Of a stretch of 59,665 nt of DNA, positions 9,983 to 59,665 are shown piece after piece; position 1 is the stretch's first letter; every line of letters begins with the position of its first letter. The notes under the pieces are model-generated. The model worked only from the letters and a program-made list of their open reading frames with translations, searched no databases and was not told the origin of the DNA. The position numbers and the translations under genes are program-made. The stretch comes from Methylococcaceae bacterium (GTDB taxonomy: Bacteria > Pseudomonadota > Gammaproteobacteria > Methylococcales > Methylomonadaceae): positions 1-59,665 of the forward strand of contig DAOUTG010000008.1 in assembly GCA_030626845.1 (NCBI GenBank). Direction: 5' to 3'.

Positions 9983-11274
9983 TGAATACGCAACTTAGTA
10001 GCCACTATAGTAATGACTATTCAGATCAGGTTACCAACTTATCTGGACAATCGGTAAATTGGTTAAACAAATTACGCAGTGAGGCATTTGCTAGTTTTTC
10101 TGAAACAGGTTTTCCATCAACAAGAGAAGAAGAATGGCGTTATACCAATGTTTCTGCTTTGGAAAAAAAACAGTTTAAGCCTATTGCTAAACATGAACTA
10201 ATTAATGAAAATTTATTAAAACCTTATTATCTTGATGATGCTTGGGTTGTGGTCTTTATTGATGGTCATTTTTCAAAACAATATTCTCGACTAGATAATT
10301 TAGATGAAGGGATTGAATTAGAAAGTATTGCTGATATTTTAAATACGCAAGCTGAAAAATTAGAACCCTACTTAGGGCAAGCTGTTTCAAATAATGAACA
10401 TAACTTTATTAATTTTAATACCGCTTGGTTTAATGATGGCATCTTTTTAAAAGTTGCTGCCAAGCAAGTCTTAACTAAACCCATTCAGTTATTACATTTT
10501 ATTTCAACGCCCGATTGTTTAGCAACAACACGTCATATCATCGTAACAGGCGAACATTCTCAAGCACAAATTATTGAAACTTTTGTGGGGGAAAATGCTT
10601 ATTTAACCACCACGGTTAATGAAGTCTTTCTGGGAGAAAACTCAGATTTAACCTTAACGAAACTACAATCTGAATCGGCAAAATCCTACCATTTCGGGGG
10701 GACTTATATCAAACAACAACCTCATAGTCGTTTTAAACATCATAATTTTTCATTTGGGGCATTGCTTGCAAGAAATGACATTCATACGGATTTAGAAACC
10801 GCCGCTGAATGTTCGTTGGATGGTTTATATTTAGGGACAAAACGCCAGCATATTGATAATCATACACGGATTAATCATAATAAACCCCACGGGATTAGTC
10901 GTGAATTTTATAAAGGAATCTTAGATGATCGCGCTCGTGGTGTTTTTCAAGGGCGGGTTGTCGTGGTTGAGGATGCTCAAAAAACTGATTCACAGATGAA
11001 TAACCGTAATTTGTTATTATCTAATCATGCAGAAGCTGATACTAAGCCGCAATTAGAAATTTATGCCGATGATGTTAAATGCGCCCATGGAGTAACGATT
11101 GGGCAATTAGATGAAAAATCAATTTTTTATCTACAATCACGAGGTATTGATGTGGAAGCGGCTAAAAATATATTAACGCTTGCATTTGCTAATGAAATGG
11201 TTGAAAAAGTCAGTTTAAAATCATTAAAAAAATTATTAAACACTCAGCTTACTCAATTTATGCCTATGAGATAA
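9982..11274 (+). CDS. sufD: Fe-S cluster assembly protein SufD
   Basis: SufD is a 430-residue beta-helix scaffold protein that pairs with SufB and SufC. The N-terminal part carries the TREEEWRYTNV motif, and the C-terminal core has GVFQGRVVV...AQKTDSQMNNRNLLLS and AHGVTIGQLDEKSIFYLQSR with the conserved His about 20 residues after the Asn-rich block. It is coupled to sufC by a one-base overlap. The next plus-strand gene is 250 bp away and unrelated, so no sufS or sufE follows here. Confidence 0.97.
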   Translation: MNTQLSSHYSNDYSDQVTNLSGQSVNWLNKLRSEAFASFSETGFPSTREEEWRYTNVSALEKKQFKPIAKHELINENLLKPYYLDDAWVVVFIDGHFSKQYSRLDNLDEGIELESIADILNTQAEKLEPYLGQAVSNNEHNFINFNTAWFNDGIFLKVAAKQVLTKPIQLLHFISTPDCLATTRHIIVTGEHSQAQIIETFVGENAYLTTTVNEVFLGENSDLTLTKLQSESAKSYHFGGTYIKQQPHSRFKHHNFSFGALLARNDIHTDLETAAECSLDGLYLGTKRQHIDNHTRINHNKPHGISREFYKGILDDRARGVFQGRVVVVEDAQKTDSQMNNRNLLLSNHAEADTKPQLEIYADDVKCAHGVTIGQLDEKSIFYLQSRGIDVEAAKNILTLAFANEMVEKVSLKSLKKLLNTQLTQFMPMR

Positions 11275-56693: not shown

Positions 56694-57938
56694 TTGAACG
56701 ACATTCCTCTTAGTATATTATTCAGTATACTTGCAGTCCTTCTCCTTCTTTCTGCCTTTTTTTCAGGTTCTGAAACCGCCTTAATGACCTTAAATCGCTA
56801 CCGTTTACAGTATTTGGTTAAACAAAAACATAAAGGGGCAATCAAGGCCAATAGACTGCTACAAAGACCTGACCGTTTAATTGGCTTAATTCTATTAGGC
56901 AATAATTTTGTTAATATCCTTGCCTCATCACTTGCCACTGTTATTGCAATAAGAGTGGCAGGTGAAAAAGGTATTCCTGTGGCAGCCGCTTTATTGACTC
57001 TTGTGGTGTTAATTTTTTCCGAAGTCACCCCAAAAACATTAGCTACCATTAAACCTGAAGTACTGGCTTTTCCTGCCTCCTGGGTTTACACACCACTATT
57101 AAAATTATTTTATCCTATTGTTTGGGTGGTTAATTTGATTGCTAATTTATTGCTACGGATTTTTGGTGTCCATGTTACTAAGAATAAACAAGATAGTTTA
57201 GATAAAGAAGAGCTAAAAAGTATCCTTGCTGATGCTGATAACATTATGCCTGTACGTTATCAAAATATGTTGTTAGGTGTTTTAGACCTTGAGTCTGCTA
57301 CTGTTGAAGATATTATGACCCCACGTAATGAAATTGTAGGGATTGATTTAGATGATTCTATTGAAGAAATTTGCCAACAAATTCTAAGTAGCCCCCATAC
57401 ACGCTTACCTGTTTTTAAAACGAGTATTGATAGGGTAATAGGTTTTTTACATTTACGCCATATACTAGTTTTATTAAATAATAAAGATTTTGATAAGAAA
57501 AAAATTACCGCTCACTTGATTAAACCCACATTTATTCCTGTTAGTACTTCTTTACATAAGCAAATGCAAAGCTTTAAAGCGCAACGTTCACGGATTGGAC
57601 TGGTTGTTGATGAATATGGTGACGTCCAAGGTCTTGTCACCTTAGATGATTTATTACAAGAAATTGTTGGCGAATTGATTACTGAAGAGGCGAATGTTAA
57701 AGAAGAGTCAAATGGTAGCTATTTAGTTGATGCGAGTGTAACTATCCGAGAACTCAACCGTATTACACATTGGTCATTACCGACACAAGGCCCTAAAACG
57801 CTTAATGGATTAATTATCGAGTTTATGGAAACTATTCCAAAGGCGGGAACAAGTTTAAAACTTCACGGGTATTTACTAGAAATTATTAAATGTGATAAAA
57901 AAACTATCCGTCAGGTTAGGTTTCATCCCCTAAAATAA
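56694..57938 (+). CDS. CNNM/CorC (HlyC/CorC) family transporter, CorB-like
   Basis: A 414-residue membrane protein: DUF21 domain with four helices (FSGSETALMTLNRYRLQYLV near residue 25), then a CBS pair (VEDIMTPRNEIVGIDLDD and VVDEYGDVQGLVTLDDLLQE) and a C-terminal CorC_HlyC domain. The full form (with DUF21) is CorB/YfjD-like, implicated in magnesium or cobalt efflux or homeostasis. The start is a TTG at 56694 with AGAGACTT upstream; the region before it has no ATG in frame that fits. Confidence 0.93.
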   Translation: MNDIPLSILFSILAVLLLLSAFFSGSETALMTLNRYRLQYLVKQKHKGAIKANRLLQRPDRLIGLILLGNNFVNILASSLATVIAIRVAGEKGIPVAAALLTLVVLIFSEVTPKTLATIKPEVLAFPASWVYTPLLKLFYPIVWVVNLIANLLLRIFGVHVTKNKQDSLDKEELKSILADADNIMPVRYQNMLLGVLDLESATVEDIMTPRNEIVGIDLDDSIEEICQQILSSPHTRLPVFKTSIDRVIGFLHLRHILVLLNNKDFDKKKITAHLIKPTFIPVSTSLHKQMQSFKAQRSRIGLVVDEYGDVQGLVTLDDLLQEIVGELITEEANVKEESNGSYLVDASVTIRELNRITHWSLPTQGPKTLNGLIIEFMETIPKAGTSLKLHGYLLEIIKCDKKTIRQVRFHPLK

Positions 57939-58005
57939 ATTTAACTATGAAAAATTCTGGCCTATTTTATTATTTTATGAAAAACTAAAAACGAACTTAT
58001 ACAAA

Positions 58006-58494
58006 TCACTTTCCAGCCAGAAATTCTGCACCCGATAACTTTATGATAACTTGTGCATTTTTCAAATTGTTTAATGTGTTAGAGATAACCTGATACCGCC
58101 ATTCAAAATCAGCAATACTGAGAGGTTCAGAAATGGGTTTTAAAAAATCAAAAGTTTGATTTGTGACAAAGGCATCGTAAGCACGAATAACTTTAATATG
58201 GAAGGCTGCGTTTATCCACATGGCATAACTATAAACTAATTCTTTGACAACATAAGTTCCTTGCTGGCTTGAATTTCCGCCTTTTACTACGTTGACAGGT
58301 GCGATACCCAAATTCTGGGTATCGGTTAATTCATTTATTAAATCAATAGTTTGCTGGCTTGATAAAAATTTTGCAGGTTCTTTTGTACGTTTATTTGCAC
58401 CCGATAGAATAGCAGATTTATGTAAGTCGTTTAAACAATAACGACCTTCTGAATCTTGACGAATAGAATAATCTGAAATGATTAATTTTGACAT
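58006..58494 (-). CDS. KilA-N domain protein, intact copy
   Basis: A 162-residue protein with the N-terminal KilA-N DNA-binding domain (SIRQDSEGRYCLNDLHKSA) and a core ending YSYAMWINAAFHIKVIRAYD, then about 45 residues. KilA-N domains come from phage and mobile element proteins (antirepressor-like, often inserted in host). The start ATG follows a 250-nt leader that is closely related to that of the copy at 58840-59319. Seen in the sequence are both the conserved domain and the tandem copy; regulatory function is unknown. Confidence 0.85.
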   Translation of the reverse strand: MSKLIISDYSIRQDSEGRYCLNDLHKSAILSGANKRTKEPAKFLSSQQTIDLINELTDTQNLGIAPVNVVKGGNSSQQGTYVVKELVYSYAMWINAAFHIKVIRAYDAFVTNQTFDFLKPISEPLSIADFEWRYQVISNTLNNLKNAQVIIKLSGAEFLAGK

Positions 58495-58716
58495 GATTTA
58501 TTTCCAGTTGAAATTTAATAATTCCACCAGACACACTTTCAAACATGGGCGGCGGATGTAATCGAGTTGAAAGACCATCTCAACGGGATAGCGTGCATAA
58601 TGCACCACGATTACACCTACCATAAATAATAGACGTAAAAAACGCATAAGATGCGCTTGCACCGTTGATTTTTCAGGCTTTCAACCCTGACTGTTATATT
58701 CGATAACAGCGAGAAA
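58495..58716 (-). promoter_or_regulatory. Structured leader of KilA-N copy A
   Basis: The 222-nt stretch between promoter and ATG holds a dyad TTCAGGCTTTCAACCCTGA (58672-58690), a small hairpin GTGCA/TGCAC (58593-58605), and a stem CTTTCAA/TTGAAAG (58536-58542, 58567-58573) with a 24-nt loop. The same elements at the same places occur in the leader at 59320-59541. A 49-codon frame from ATG 58647 to 58498 lies inside but is not open in the other copy, so RNA or DNA structure, not a peptide, seems conserved. Confidence 0.6.
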
Positions 58717-58745
58717 ACTATAATCGTAGCGGCGTTGATTGTCAA
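58717..58745 (-). promoter_or_regulatory. Promoter of KilA-N copy A
   Basis: On the minus strand TTGACA (58745-58740) and TATAGT (58722-58717) are separated by 17 bp, a near-consensus sigma-70 promoter. It precedes the intact KilA-N gene by about 220 bp. Confidence 0.75.
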
Positions 58746-58761
58746 ATTTATTTTTTACCTA

Positions 58762-58777
58762 AGCAGGAATTCCTGCT
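58762..58777. repeat. Perfect 16-bp palindrome between the KilA-N genes
   Basis: AGCAGGAATTCCTGCT is its own reverse complement. It lies 17 bp upstream of promoter A and about 60 bp behind the end of the second copy, so it could be an operator, a terminator stem for the broken copy or an insertion-related scar. It contains an EcoRI-type hexamer by chance. Confidence 0.45.
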
Positions 58778-58839
58778 ATGCGTTCCTCATATCTGAGCAA
58801 CGCAATTAAATCAATTACTTATTGGCATATAAACGCCTA

Positions 58840-59319
58840 TTATTTTTCAAGTAATCCACCTGCCATTAATTCTGCCCCTGATAATTTTATAATAACCTCG
58901 GCATTCTTCAGATTGTTTAACGCTTGAGTAACCGCTTGAAGCCGCCATTCAAAATCATTGATAGCCAGCGGTTCGGTAATCGGTTTTAAAAAATCAAAGG
59001 TTTCACCTAGAATAAGTGTTTCATAGGCTTCAATAACATGTAAATTGAAGGTAGGACTAATCCACATCGCATAAGCATAAACCAGTTTTTTAATAACATA
59101 AGTACCTCTATTATTACCGCCATTAATAACATTTACGGCAGTTCTCATTTCTGAGAAGTCGGTTATTTCGTCAATCAAAGCTTTAGTTTATGCTAGTCTT
59201 AGCCAATTTGCAGGTTTATCTTTTGATTTATTCCCAGCAGATTTATGTAAATCGTTTAAACAATAACGACCTTCTGAGTCTTGGCGAATAGAATAATCTG
59301 AAATGATTAATTTTGACAT
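58840..59319 (-). pseudogene. KilA-N domain protein, second copy with an internal stop
   Basis: The frame opens at ATG 59319 with MSKLIISDYSIRQDSEGRYC, nearly identical to copy A, and continues LNDLHKSAGNKSKDKPANWL up to RLA followed by a TAA at about 59190. After the stop the same frame resumes TKALIDEITDFSEMRTAVNV and goes to the end (112 further residues, closing with AELMAGGLLEK). In copy A this place reads through. One base change (TAA) thus separates the domain start from its C-terminal part. It may be expressed as two fragments or not at all. Confidence 0.75.
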
Positions 59320-59541
59320 GATAGTTTCCTTGGATTGTGAAAACCACCGAACATACTCTCAAATATGGGCGGTGAATATATTCAGAGTTTGAGAGACCGC
59401 TTCCAAGGATACGGCGAGCAAAAGCTCCTCTTCATACATCCACCATAAAATGATAGTTATAAAAAGTGCGTTAAACACGCTGATATATTGGAATATTCAG
59501 GCTCTCATCCCTGACCACTACAATGAGGCAGTGGAACAAAA
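59320..59541 (-). promoter_or_regulatory. Structured leader of KilA-N copy B
   Basis: The 222-nt leader repeats the elements of copy A: TTCAGGCTCTCATCCCTGA (59496-59514, 17 of 19 identical), a hairpin GAGC/GCTC (59416-59427) and the stem CTCTCAAA/TTTGAGAG (59356-59363, 59388-59395) with a 24-nt loop. Compared with copy A the stem has T-to-C in one arm and A-to-G in the other, which keeps pairing. Confidence 0.6.
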
Positions 59542-59571
59542 ACTATAATCGTATTCAGTCTTGTTTGTCAA
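59542..59571 (-). promoter_or_regulatory. Promoter of KilA-N copy B
   Basis: TTGACA (59571-59566) and TATAGT (59547-59542) lie 18 bp apart on the minus strand, one base wider than in copy A. The promoter lies inside the last codons of the upstream gene: its TGA (59557-59555) is in the spacer between the two hexamers. Confidence 0.7.
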
Positions 59572-59665
59572 ATGCTAATGAATTTTTATGATCGTATTTT
59601 TCCCACATCTGCCACAATGTTTTTTCAAAATTTTTCGCAAATCTTGGGGCATCAAATAAAGGCGA
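59555..59665 (-). CDS. C-terminal end of a TPR/O-GlcNAc-transferase (SPINDLY)-like protein, cut by the window
   Basis: The last 36 residues read SPLFDAPRFAKNFEKTLWQM and then WEKYDHKNSLAFDKQD before TGA. The pattern LFDAPRFAKNFEKTLWQMW is that of the end of glycosyltransferase 41 (OGT/SPINDLY-like) proteins, which in bacteria carry TPRs in front. Only this end is visible. The stop lies inside the promoter of KilA-N copy B, showing a tight join. Confidence 0.7.
   Translation of the reverse strand, partial: SPLFDAPRFAKNFEKTLWQMWEKYDHKNSLAFDKQD

Follow-up and report, generated by a model that had tools for sequence, protein, structure and literature searches.

Two leaders of about 220 nt, each followed by a gene for a KilA-N protein, stand in tandem near the end of the window, the 59,665-nt stretch analysed here. 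The window is a whole contig of a Methylococcaceae bacterium and ends 94 nt past the −35 element of the outer leader. The initial annotation noticed that a stem is maintained in both leaders while its sequence differs, and read this as a functional RNA structure or DNA dyad rather than as the trace of a peptide. The question is which molecule the leaders encode and with what it pairs. The leader at 58495-58745 (copy A of the initial annotation) is called copy 58 and the leader at 59320-59571 (copy B) is called copy 59; both lie on the minus strand.

Identification of the Two Leaders

Judged by sequence, both leaders are C4 antisense RNAs (Rfam RF01695), an already described family that includes the immunity RNA of phages P1 and P7. 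In an Rfam scan of the whole window, both aligned to the full length of the model (positions 1-87), with E values over the window of 2.4e-6 (copy 58) and 8.7e-6 (copy 59). The scores (Table 1) exceeded the curated cut-off of 45 bits by a small margin of 1.5-3.8 bits. At the curated cut-offs, the two C4 RNAs were the only two Rfam matches in the entire window. The order on one strand is the same in both cassettes: promoter, a1 and b1 sites, C4, a2 and b2 sites, and a KilA-N gene of the antirepressor type (the a'/b' naming follows the phage P1 record).

We believe that each leader represents a phage-type immunity cassette, with a probability of about 0.87. This value covers the identity of the cassette and the way in which the type works, the latter by analogy with P1, and not present activity in the strain. 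The puzzling duplicated leader can now be explained as a known phage RNA. What is new is modest: a tandem pair carrying two different C4 alleles, its persistence in a genus with no match to the phage families tested, and the architecture that joins C4 with IsrK.

Table 1. Features of the two C4 cassettes in the window
Feature	Position	Strand	Evidence
Copy 58, −35 TTGACA	58740..58745	-	promoter scan
Copy 58, −10 TATAGT, spacer 17	58717..58722	-	promoter scan
Copy 58, a1 site, within the 19-bp motif	58678..58687	-	10 consecutive pairs (G-U allowed) with C4 a'
Copy 58, b1 site	58662..58668	-	7 consecutive pairs with C4 b'
Copy 58, isrK-like segment	58637..58710	-	30.8 bits, under the cut-off of 50
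Copy 58, terminator-like hairpin with T6, between a1/b1 and C4	58634..58656	-	hairpin and T-run rule; absent from the simpler terminator scan
Copy 58, C4 antisense RNA	58545..58627	-	RF01695, 48.8 bits
Copy 58, a2 target site	58536..58542	-	7 consecutive pairs with a'
Copy 58, b2 target site	58503..58514	-	8 consecutive pairs at 58507-58514; Shine-Dalgarno GGA pairs past one mismatch (by eye)
Copy 58, KilA-N gene, 162 aa, intact	58006..58494	-	PF04383, 70.8 bits
Copy 59, −35 TTGACA	59566..59571	-	promoter scan
Copy 59, −10 TATAGT, spacer 18	59542..59547	-	promoter scan
Copy 59, a1 site	59502..59507	-	6 pairs
Copy 59, possible b1 site	59488..59493	-	6 pairs, weak, read from sequence; the best upstream b' match lies elsewhere
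Copy 59, C4 antisense RNA	59365..59450	-	RF01695, 46.5 bits
Copy 59, a2 target site	59356..59363	-	8 consecutive pairs with a'
Copy 59, b2 target site, includes Shine-Dalgarno AAGGA	59327..59334	-	8 consecutive pairs with b'
Copy 59, KilA-N gene, interrupted	58840..59319	-	in-frame TAA at 59190-59188

The Compensated Stem

Most of the elements described by the initial annotation were recovered. Promoters lie at an equal position in both leaders (TTGACA-17-TATAGT at 58745-58717 and TTGACA-18-TATAGT at 59571-59542). Each has 11 of 12 consensus matches, and they are the two best among 8 promoter-like sites in 57900-59665; the number of such sites alone is not significant, because shuffled sequences average 6.7. 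The 19-nt motif is identical at 17 of 19 positions and begins 26 and 27 nt past the last base of the −10 element. The central inner hairpins GTGCA/TGCAC and GAGC/GCTC are predicted in the two copies, and this small hairpin is the inner hairpin of C4. The stem with a 24-nt loop reads CTTTCAA...TTGAAAG in copy 58 and CTCTCAAA...TTTGAGAG in copy 59, and its exchange of T-A for C-G is real.

The annotation was right that pairing is kept and that no peptide explains it. However, the partners were wrong, and the structure is predicted to be neither a new cis element nor a DNA dyad. One arm of the stem is a', which lies within C4, and the other is a2, just past the end of C4; therefore, the swap of T/A to C/G is a covariation of antisense and target. 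The change from GAAAG to GAGAG occurs at a1 and at a2, and its complement occurs at a'. The compensated stem fits antisense-target pairing of a' with a2, with a third copy at a1 inside the 19-bp motif. Pairing covaries since the antisense RNA and its target must change together. This anatomy of a', a1 and a2 points to a trans-acting antisense RNA with targets, belonging to a described family.

A cis-acting leader, such as a riboswitch or an attenuator, could also be built on the CTTTCAA/TTGAAAG stem, which can be drawn in both copies with its compensatory change. That stem is incompatible with the closing helix of C4, because the 3' strand of the helix sits inside the supposed 24-nt loop, and this long helix is the covarying element. 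A third occurrence of the stem sequence, at a1, is what an antisense RNA with two targets would predict. We consider a cis-acting leader very improbable. For a leader that codes for a peptide, or a DNA dyad bound by a protein, the probability appears negligible. An open frame does run over the copy 58 leader (49 codons from an internal ATG, as first described, or 54 from a GTG), and a frame of 65 codons covers the related leader of locus L109. The frame overlaps the covarying RNA and is not kept in copy 59, where no frame of at least 40 aa was found at this place and the shorter frames are of other sequence.

Covariation of the C4 Fold

A wider alignment, which the initial annotation had proposed as a check on covariation, gave pair counts over 38 loci that support the C4 fold. 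There were 58 C4 places in 61 genomes (window genome included), of which 31 were taken and combined with 7 loci from named genomes. A 39th locus, L109, one of the 58, was added for the comparison of own and other pairing. The duplicate L088 was left out, as was L018, which is the same place as L068. The second hairpin of C4 was poorly aligned by MAFFT, and the count was limited to pairs of the closing helix and of the first hairpin, plus a single doubtful pair.

In the 38 loci, 92.9% of cells were paired, compared with 28.8-47.9% when the 3' sides were slid by 1-3 columns, an advantage helped by the fold being taken from the same alignment. The corresponding value was 72.6% in shuffles (n = 500), which never reached the observed fold values, as related sequences can also achieve against such shuffles. 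Changes on both sides were seen in 21 of 23 pairs.

Antisense-Target Pairing

A second pairing, that of b' with b2 at the Shine-Dalgarno sequence, had gone unnoticed in the initial annotation. In copy 59, TCCTTGGA pairs with TCCAAGGA. In copy 58, GTTGAGAT pairs with ATTTCAAC, and TCC with GGA follows past one mismatch, the last step being read by eye. The a'-a2 and b'-b2 pairings extend over 7 and 8 consecutive positions in copy 58 and over 8 and 8 in copy 59.

The results showed that C4 RNAs match their own target sites better than those of other loci. Over the 39 loci, the mean number of consecutive pairs was 7.54 for a' with its own a2 and 4.98 with the sites of other loci, and 8.64 and 5.35, respectively, for b' and b2; neither own-site mean was reached in 10,000 permutations (0/10,000 each). 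The loci are mutually related, which should lower rather than raise this contrast. At least 6 pairs at each of a2 and b2 were present in 38 of the 39 loci, a length also reached by 432 of 1,482 (29%) non-cognate a'-a2 pairings and 589 of 1,482 (40%) non-cognate b'-b2 pairings. The exception at both sites, L087, is the lowest-scoring C4 of the set (42.2 bits). L109 lacks a start codon, and its b2 window was set as if the start lay 50 nt after C4.

The upstream sites showed a smaller excess (a' 7.64 versus 6.26, b' 7.90 versus 6.91; each 0/10,000 permutations). Within the window, a1 and b1 pair over 10 and 7 positions in copy 58 and over 6 and 6, which is weak, in copy 59. The c4-a1b1 model (RF03163) gave 24.2 of 46.7 bits in copy 58 and no match in copy 59.

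Between the two copies, b' is strongly different, and a' differs at one core position. The a' of copy 58 pairs with the a2 of copy 59 over 7 positions by way of a G-U pair. Therefore, copy specificity would lie mostly on b', and cross-talk through a' is possible.

Target Genes

Both KilA-N genes are present behind the leaders, as first described, but only the copy 58 gene is intact; codon 44 of the copy 59 gene is TAA, and the C4 and target sites of copy 59 remain. By tblastn, the copy 58 protein matched 114 phage records, the best with 62.5% identity over 64% of its length. Among the first genes after C4, 18 of 37 had a Pfam domain above cut-off (one of the 38, 13 aa long, fell outside the scan). 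The domains were KilA-N (9, a count that includes both window copies, copy 59 through the N-terminal part of its gene), Bro-N (3), HTH_36 (2), AntA, P22_AR_N, Rha and AlpA (1 each). By the names of their domains, the downstream genes would be antirepressors or regulators. Starting from KilA-N, C4 was found at cut-off in 8 of 50 loci, upstream of the KilA-N gene in 7 of these 8; some of the 50 stretches end at the contig.

A C-terminal tail, FLKPI.EP...DF.WR...NL.NA.VI...SGAEL or alike, is common to the KilA-N proteins (window 58840-59178 and 58006-58494; L086) and to the L084 protein. The latter has an AntA N-terminal domain instead of KilA-N with the same tail, which suggests a domain swap behind the C4 leader. 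Five more KilA-N matches were found in the window genome on contigs C13, C72, C16 and C15 (22.8-40.3 bits, four over cut-off), and the C4 search of this genome gave no C4 on these contigs. In L032 (Thiothrix lacustris), positions 2027-2809 hold c4-a1b1, isrK and C4, each scoring above its cut-off, followed by a 75-codon frame and a KilA-N match, in an order that resembles c4-icd-ant of P1.

Proposed Mechanism and Comparison with P1

By analogy with P1, RNase P would cleave the leader transcript at the GG with which C4 starts (58621-58620 in copy 58 and 59444-59443 in copy 59). The free C4 would then pair in trans, a' with a2 and b' with b2. With b2 lying at the Shine-Dalgarno sequence, no KilA-N protein would be made while C4 is present. 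In both copies, C4 opens with GGT. For P1 and P7, one report describes cleavage of C4 by RNase P at GGW, partial covering of ribosome-binding sites by the b' loop and specificity conferred by a', and gives a 4-nt difference as what sets P1 and P7 apart (PMC5320573).

The P1 record, used as a control, gave 68.8 bits for C4, 51 for c4-a1b1 and 35.1 for isrK (below the cut-off of 50); its annotation runs a1, b1, c4, a2, b2, icd, ant. In the same windows, P1 showed 7 (a'-a2) and 12 (b'-b2) pairs, and its leader found 33 phage records. The P1/P7 system and the cassettes studied here share the C4 fold, the GG opening, the order from promoter through a1/b1, C4 and a2/b2 to the start codon, and the position of b2 at the Shine-Dalgarno sequence. 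The spacing is also alike, with the start codon 47 nt after the end of the C4 model in P1, 50 nt in copy 58 and 45 nt in copy 59. In contrast to P1/P7, the KilA-N gene here follows directly without an icd-like frame, and there are two tandem cassettes of different alleles, with no phage found around them and one target gene broken.

Several chromosomal C4 RNAs with different a'/b' in one genome have also been described as the Group 1 C4-like sRNAs of Acinetobacter baumannii (PMC5320573). There, 21 sequences were reported by RNA-seq, whereas the window genome has three, predicted from sequence alone, each with a matching downstream target. The third C4 (G000:C6:44754-44837; L001; L004 8755-8838) scores 62.9 bits and lies near a contig end. 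It shows 8 a'-a2 pairs and 10 b'-b2 pairs, and the gene behind it is incomplete, with a start like those of L078 and L081 (HTH_36).

Possible Relationship between C4 and IsrK

A terminator-like hairpin with a T run was found between a1/b1 and C4 in 31 of 39 loci, compared with 3.5 expected from shuffles. The search covered 90 nt upstream of C4; in the farthest case, L030, 64 nt separate the T run from C4. The P1 control also has such a hairpin, but its shuffles give one in 24%. By the same rule, copy 59 has none, and the simple terminator scan lists none on the minus strand in either copy. Just upstream of C4, 25 of 38 loci have an isrK match (E up to 0.01), and 10 of the 38 exceed the isrK cut-off; the 39th locus in this count, L030, was scanned at cut-off only and gave no isrK. 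In the window, the isrK model (RF01394, cut-off 50 bits) gave 30.8 bits in copy 58 and no match in copy 59. From these data, C4 and IsrK appear to belong to the same leader.

In its published description, IsrK is short, ends at a terminator and activates the read-through mRNA of its own locus; the stable, processed STnc1160 is made downstream (PMC4825925). The isrK-orf45-anrP system of Gifsy-1 (RF01394) joins a leader with a terminator to a read-through mRNA and an antirepressor-type gene. This layout resembles the one predicted for the present cassettes, of which copy 58 has a terminator-like hairpin by the rule and copy 59 has none; copy 58 lies below the isrK cut-off, and copy 59 has no match. 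The phrase 'C4 antisense' is absent from the main text of that paper; we infer that orf45/STnc1160 of Gifsy-1 is a C4 RNA. The same paper compares the IsrK system with the CI RNA of phage P4 (PMC4825925). By its description, P4 CI RNA with seqA and seqC is a processed antisense RNA between two target sites, as in the C4 cassettes, but is said to work by premature transcription termination (PMC4825925). The two families have been tabulated side by side in Xylella (PMC12189769). A second paper, in its passages on STnc1160, names STnc1160 and IsrK only as transcribed Gifsy-1 RNAs. In the one paper library searched, nothing paired 'C4 antisense' with 'KilA-N'.

It is possible, at somewhat short of even odds, that the leaders work as a two-RNA switch of the IsrK type. 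A short RNA, terminated between a1/b1 and C4 (near 58636-58641 in copy 58), would titrate C4 or remodel the mRNA and turn the gene on, and read-through would make C4 and the mRNA. This would extend the C4 reading, not replace it. The hairpins in 31 loci and the isrK matches in 25 argue for such a switch, as does the action of IsrK on orf45-anrP shown in Gifsy-1 (PMC4825925). Against it stand the score of copy 58 below the isrK cut-off, its hairpin missing from the simple scan, and copy 59 with neither an isrK match nor a terminator by the rule. Co-expressed STnc1160 was reported to strengthen, not relieve, the IsrK effect (PMC4825925), which does not fit plain titration. The matter bears on whether C4 and IsrK, which have been studied separately, are two halves of one switch.

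Distribution and Persistence of the Cassettes

C4 was found in 26 of the 61 genomes searched (window genome included), in 24 of them above cut-off. At E up to 1, 1 of 14 control genomes, that of Thermus composti, gave a match, which was below cut-off. Within the genus, 5 of 6 genomes carry C4, at 8 loci in all, one of which scores just under cut-off. The gene at 56694-57938, which adjoins the cassettes, is present in 6 of 6 genus genomes. Around this gene in the other five (L102-L106), the stretches, which are of unequal length and in some cases end at the contig, gave no blastn similarity to 57900-59665.

In all 6 genus genomes, capsid PF05065, terminase PF03237 and portals PF04860 and PF05136 gave 0 matches at E up to 0.001, a result that leaves other phage types possible and includes several fragmented or incomplete genomes. 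Each of the four families matches 3 to 6 of the 14 control genomes. With 8 C4 loci in the genus and no match to the four families, the cassettes may be prophage-less. The frames beside the cassettes in L107, L108 and L110 were not phage-like by eye. Next to the C4-HTH_36 cassette of G001, L110 also has a tandem short repeat at 10186-10838, with VFGLWSL as the repeated unit of its frame.

The a' and b' of copy 59 are identical to those of L086/L107, in another genus genome, and those of copy 58 to those of L109, in a third. The latter (G005:C31) has the C4 allele of copy 58 and a KilA-N gene without its start-codon region, and upstream lies a long frame that by eye resembles a type I restriction enzyme. 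Comparison of copy 58 with L109 gave 126 identical positions of 133 for C4 with the gap before the start codon, and 309 of 402 for the genes (Fisher p 7e-7). The corresponding values for copy 59 and L107 are 116 of 129 and 325 of 442 (Fisher p 4e-5). The cassettes within the genus look shuffled, a pattern that both selection on the RNA and leader exchange by recombination would give.

The cassettes could be decaying relics without any present function, left behind by prophages that carried C4 loci and were lost. We regard this as unlikely. Such decay would agree with the stop in the copy 59 gene, the missing start-codon region of the homologous cassette L109, the absence of matches to the four phage families in all 6 genus genomes, and the C4 score of one of five cassettes (L086/L107), which at 43.6 bits falls narrowly below the cut-off of 45. 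However, each of the 5 KilA-N/AntA-type cassettes of the genus has 7 to 10 paired positions in a'-a2 and in b'-b2. C4 with its gap is also more conserved than the gene in both comparisons above, though leader recombination would give the same. The promoter scan covered the two window copies only.

A further proposal, quite unlikely at present, is that the C4 cassettes of this genus, which probably consists of methanotrophs, persist without a prophage as stand-alone immunity alleles, with the RNA rather than the KilA-N protein being kept, and that C4 and IsrK are the repressing and activating RNAs of one widespread leader. Given the identity of a' and b' across genus genomes, each C4 under this proposal would silence incoming phages or cassettes with matching a2 and b2. 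If this were true, the tandem pair would protect against two immunity types. The proposal bears on why C4 cassettes survive where the phage is not found.
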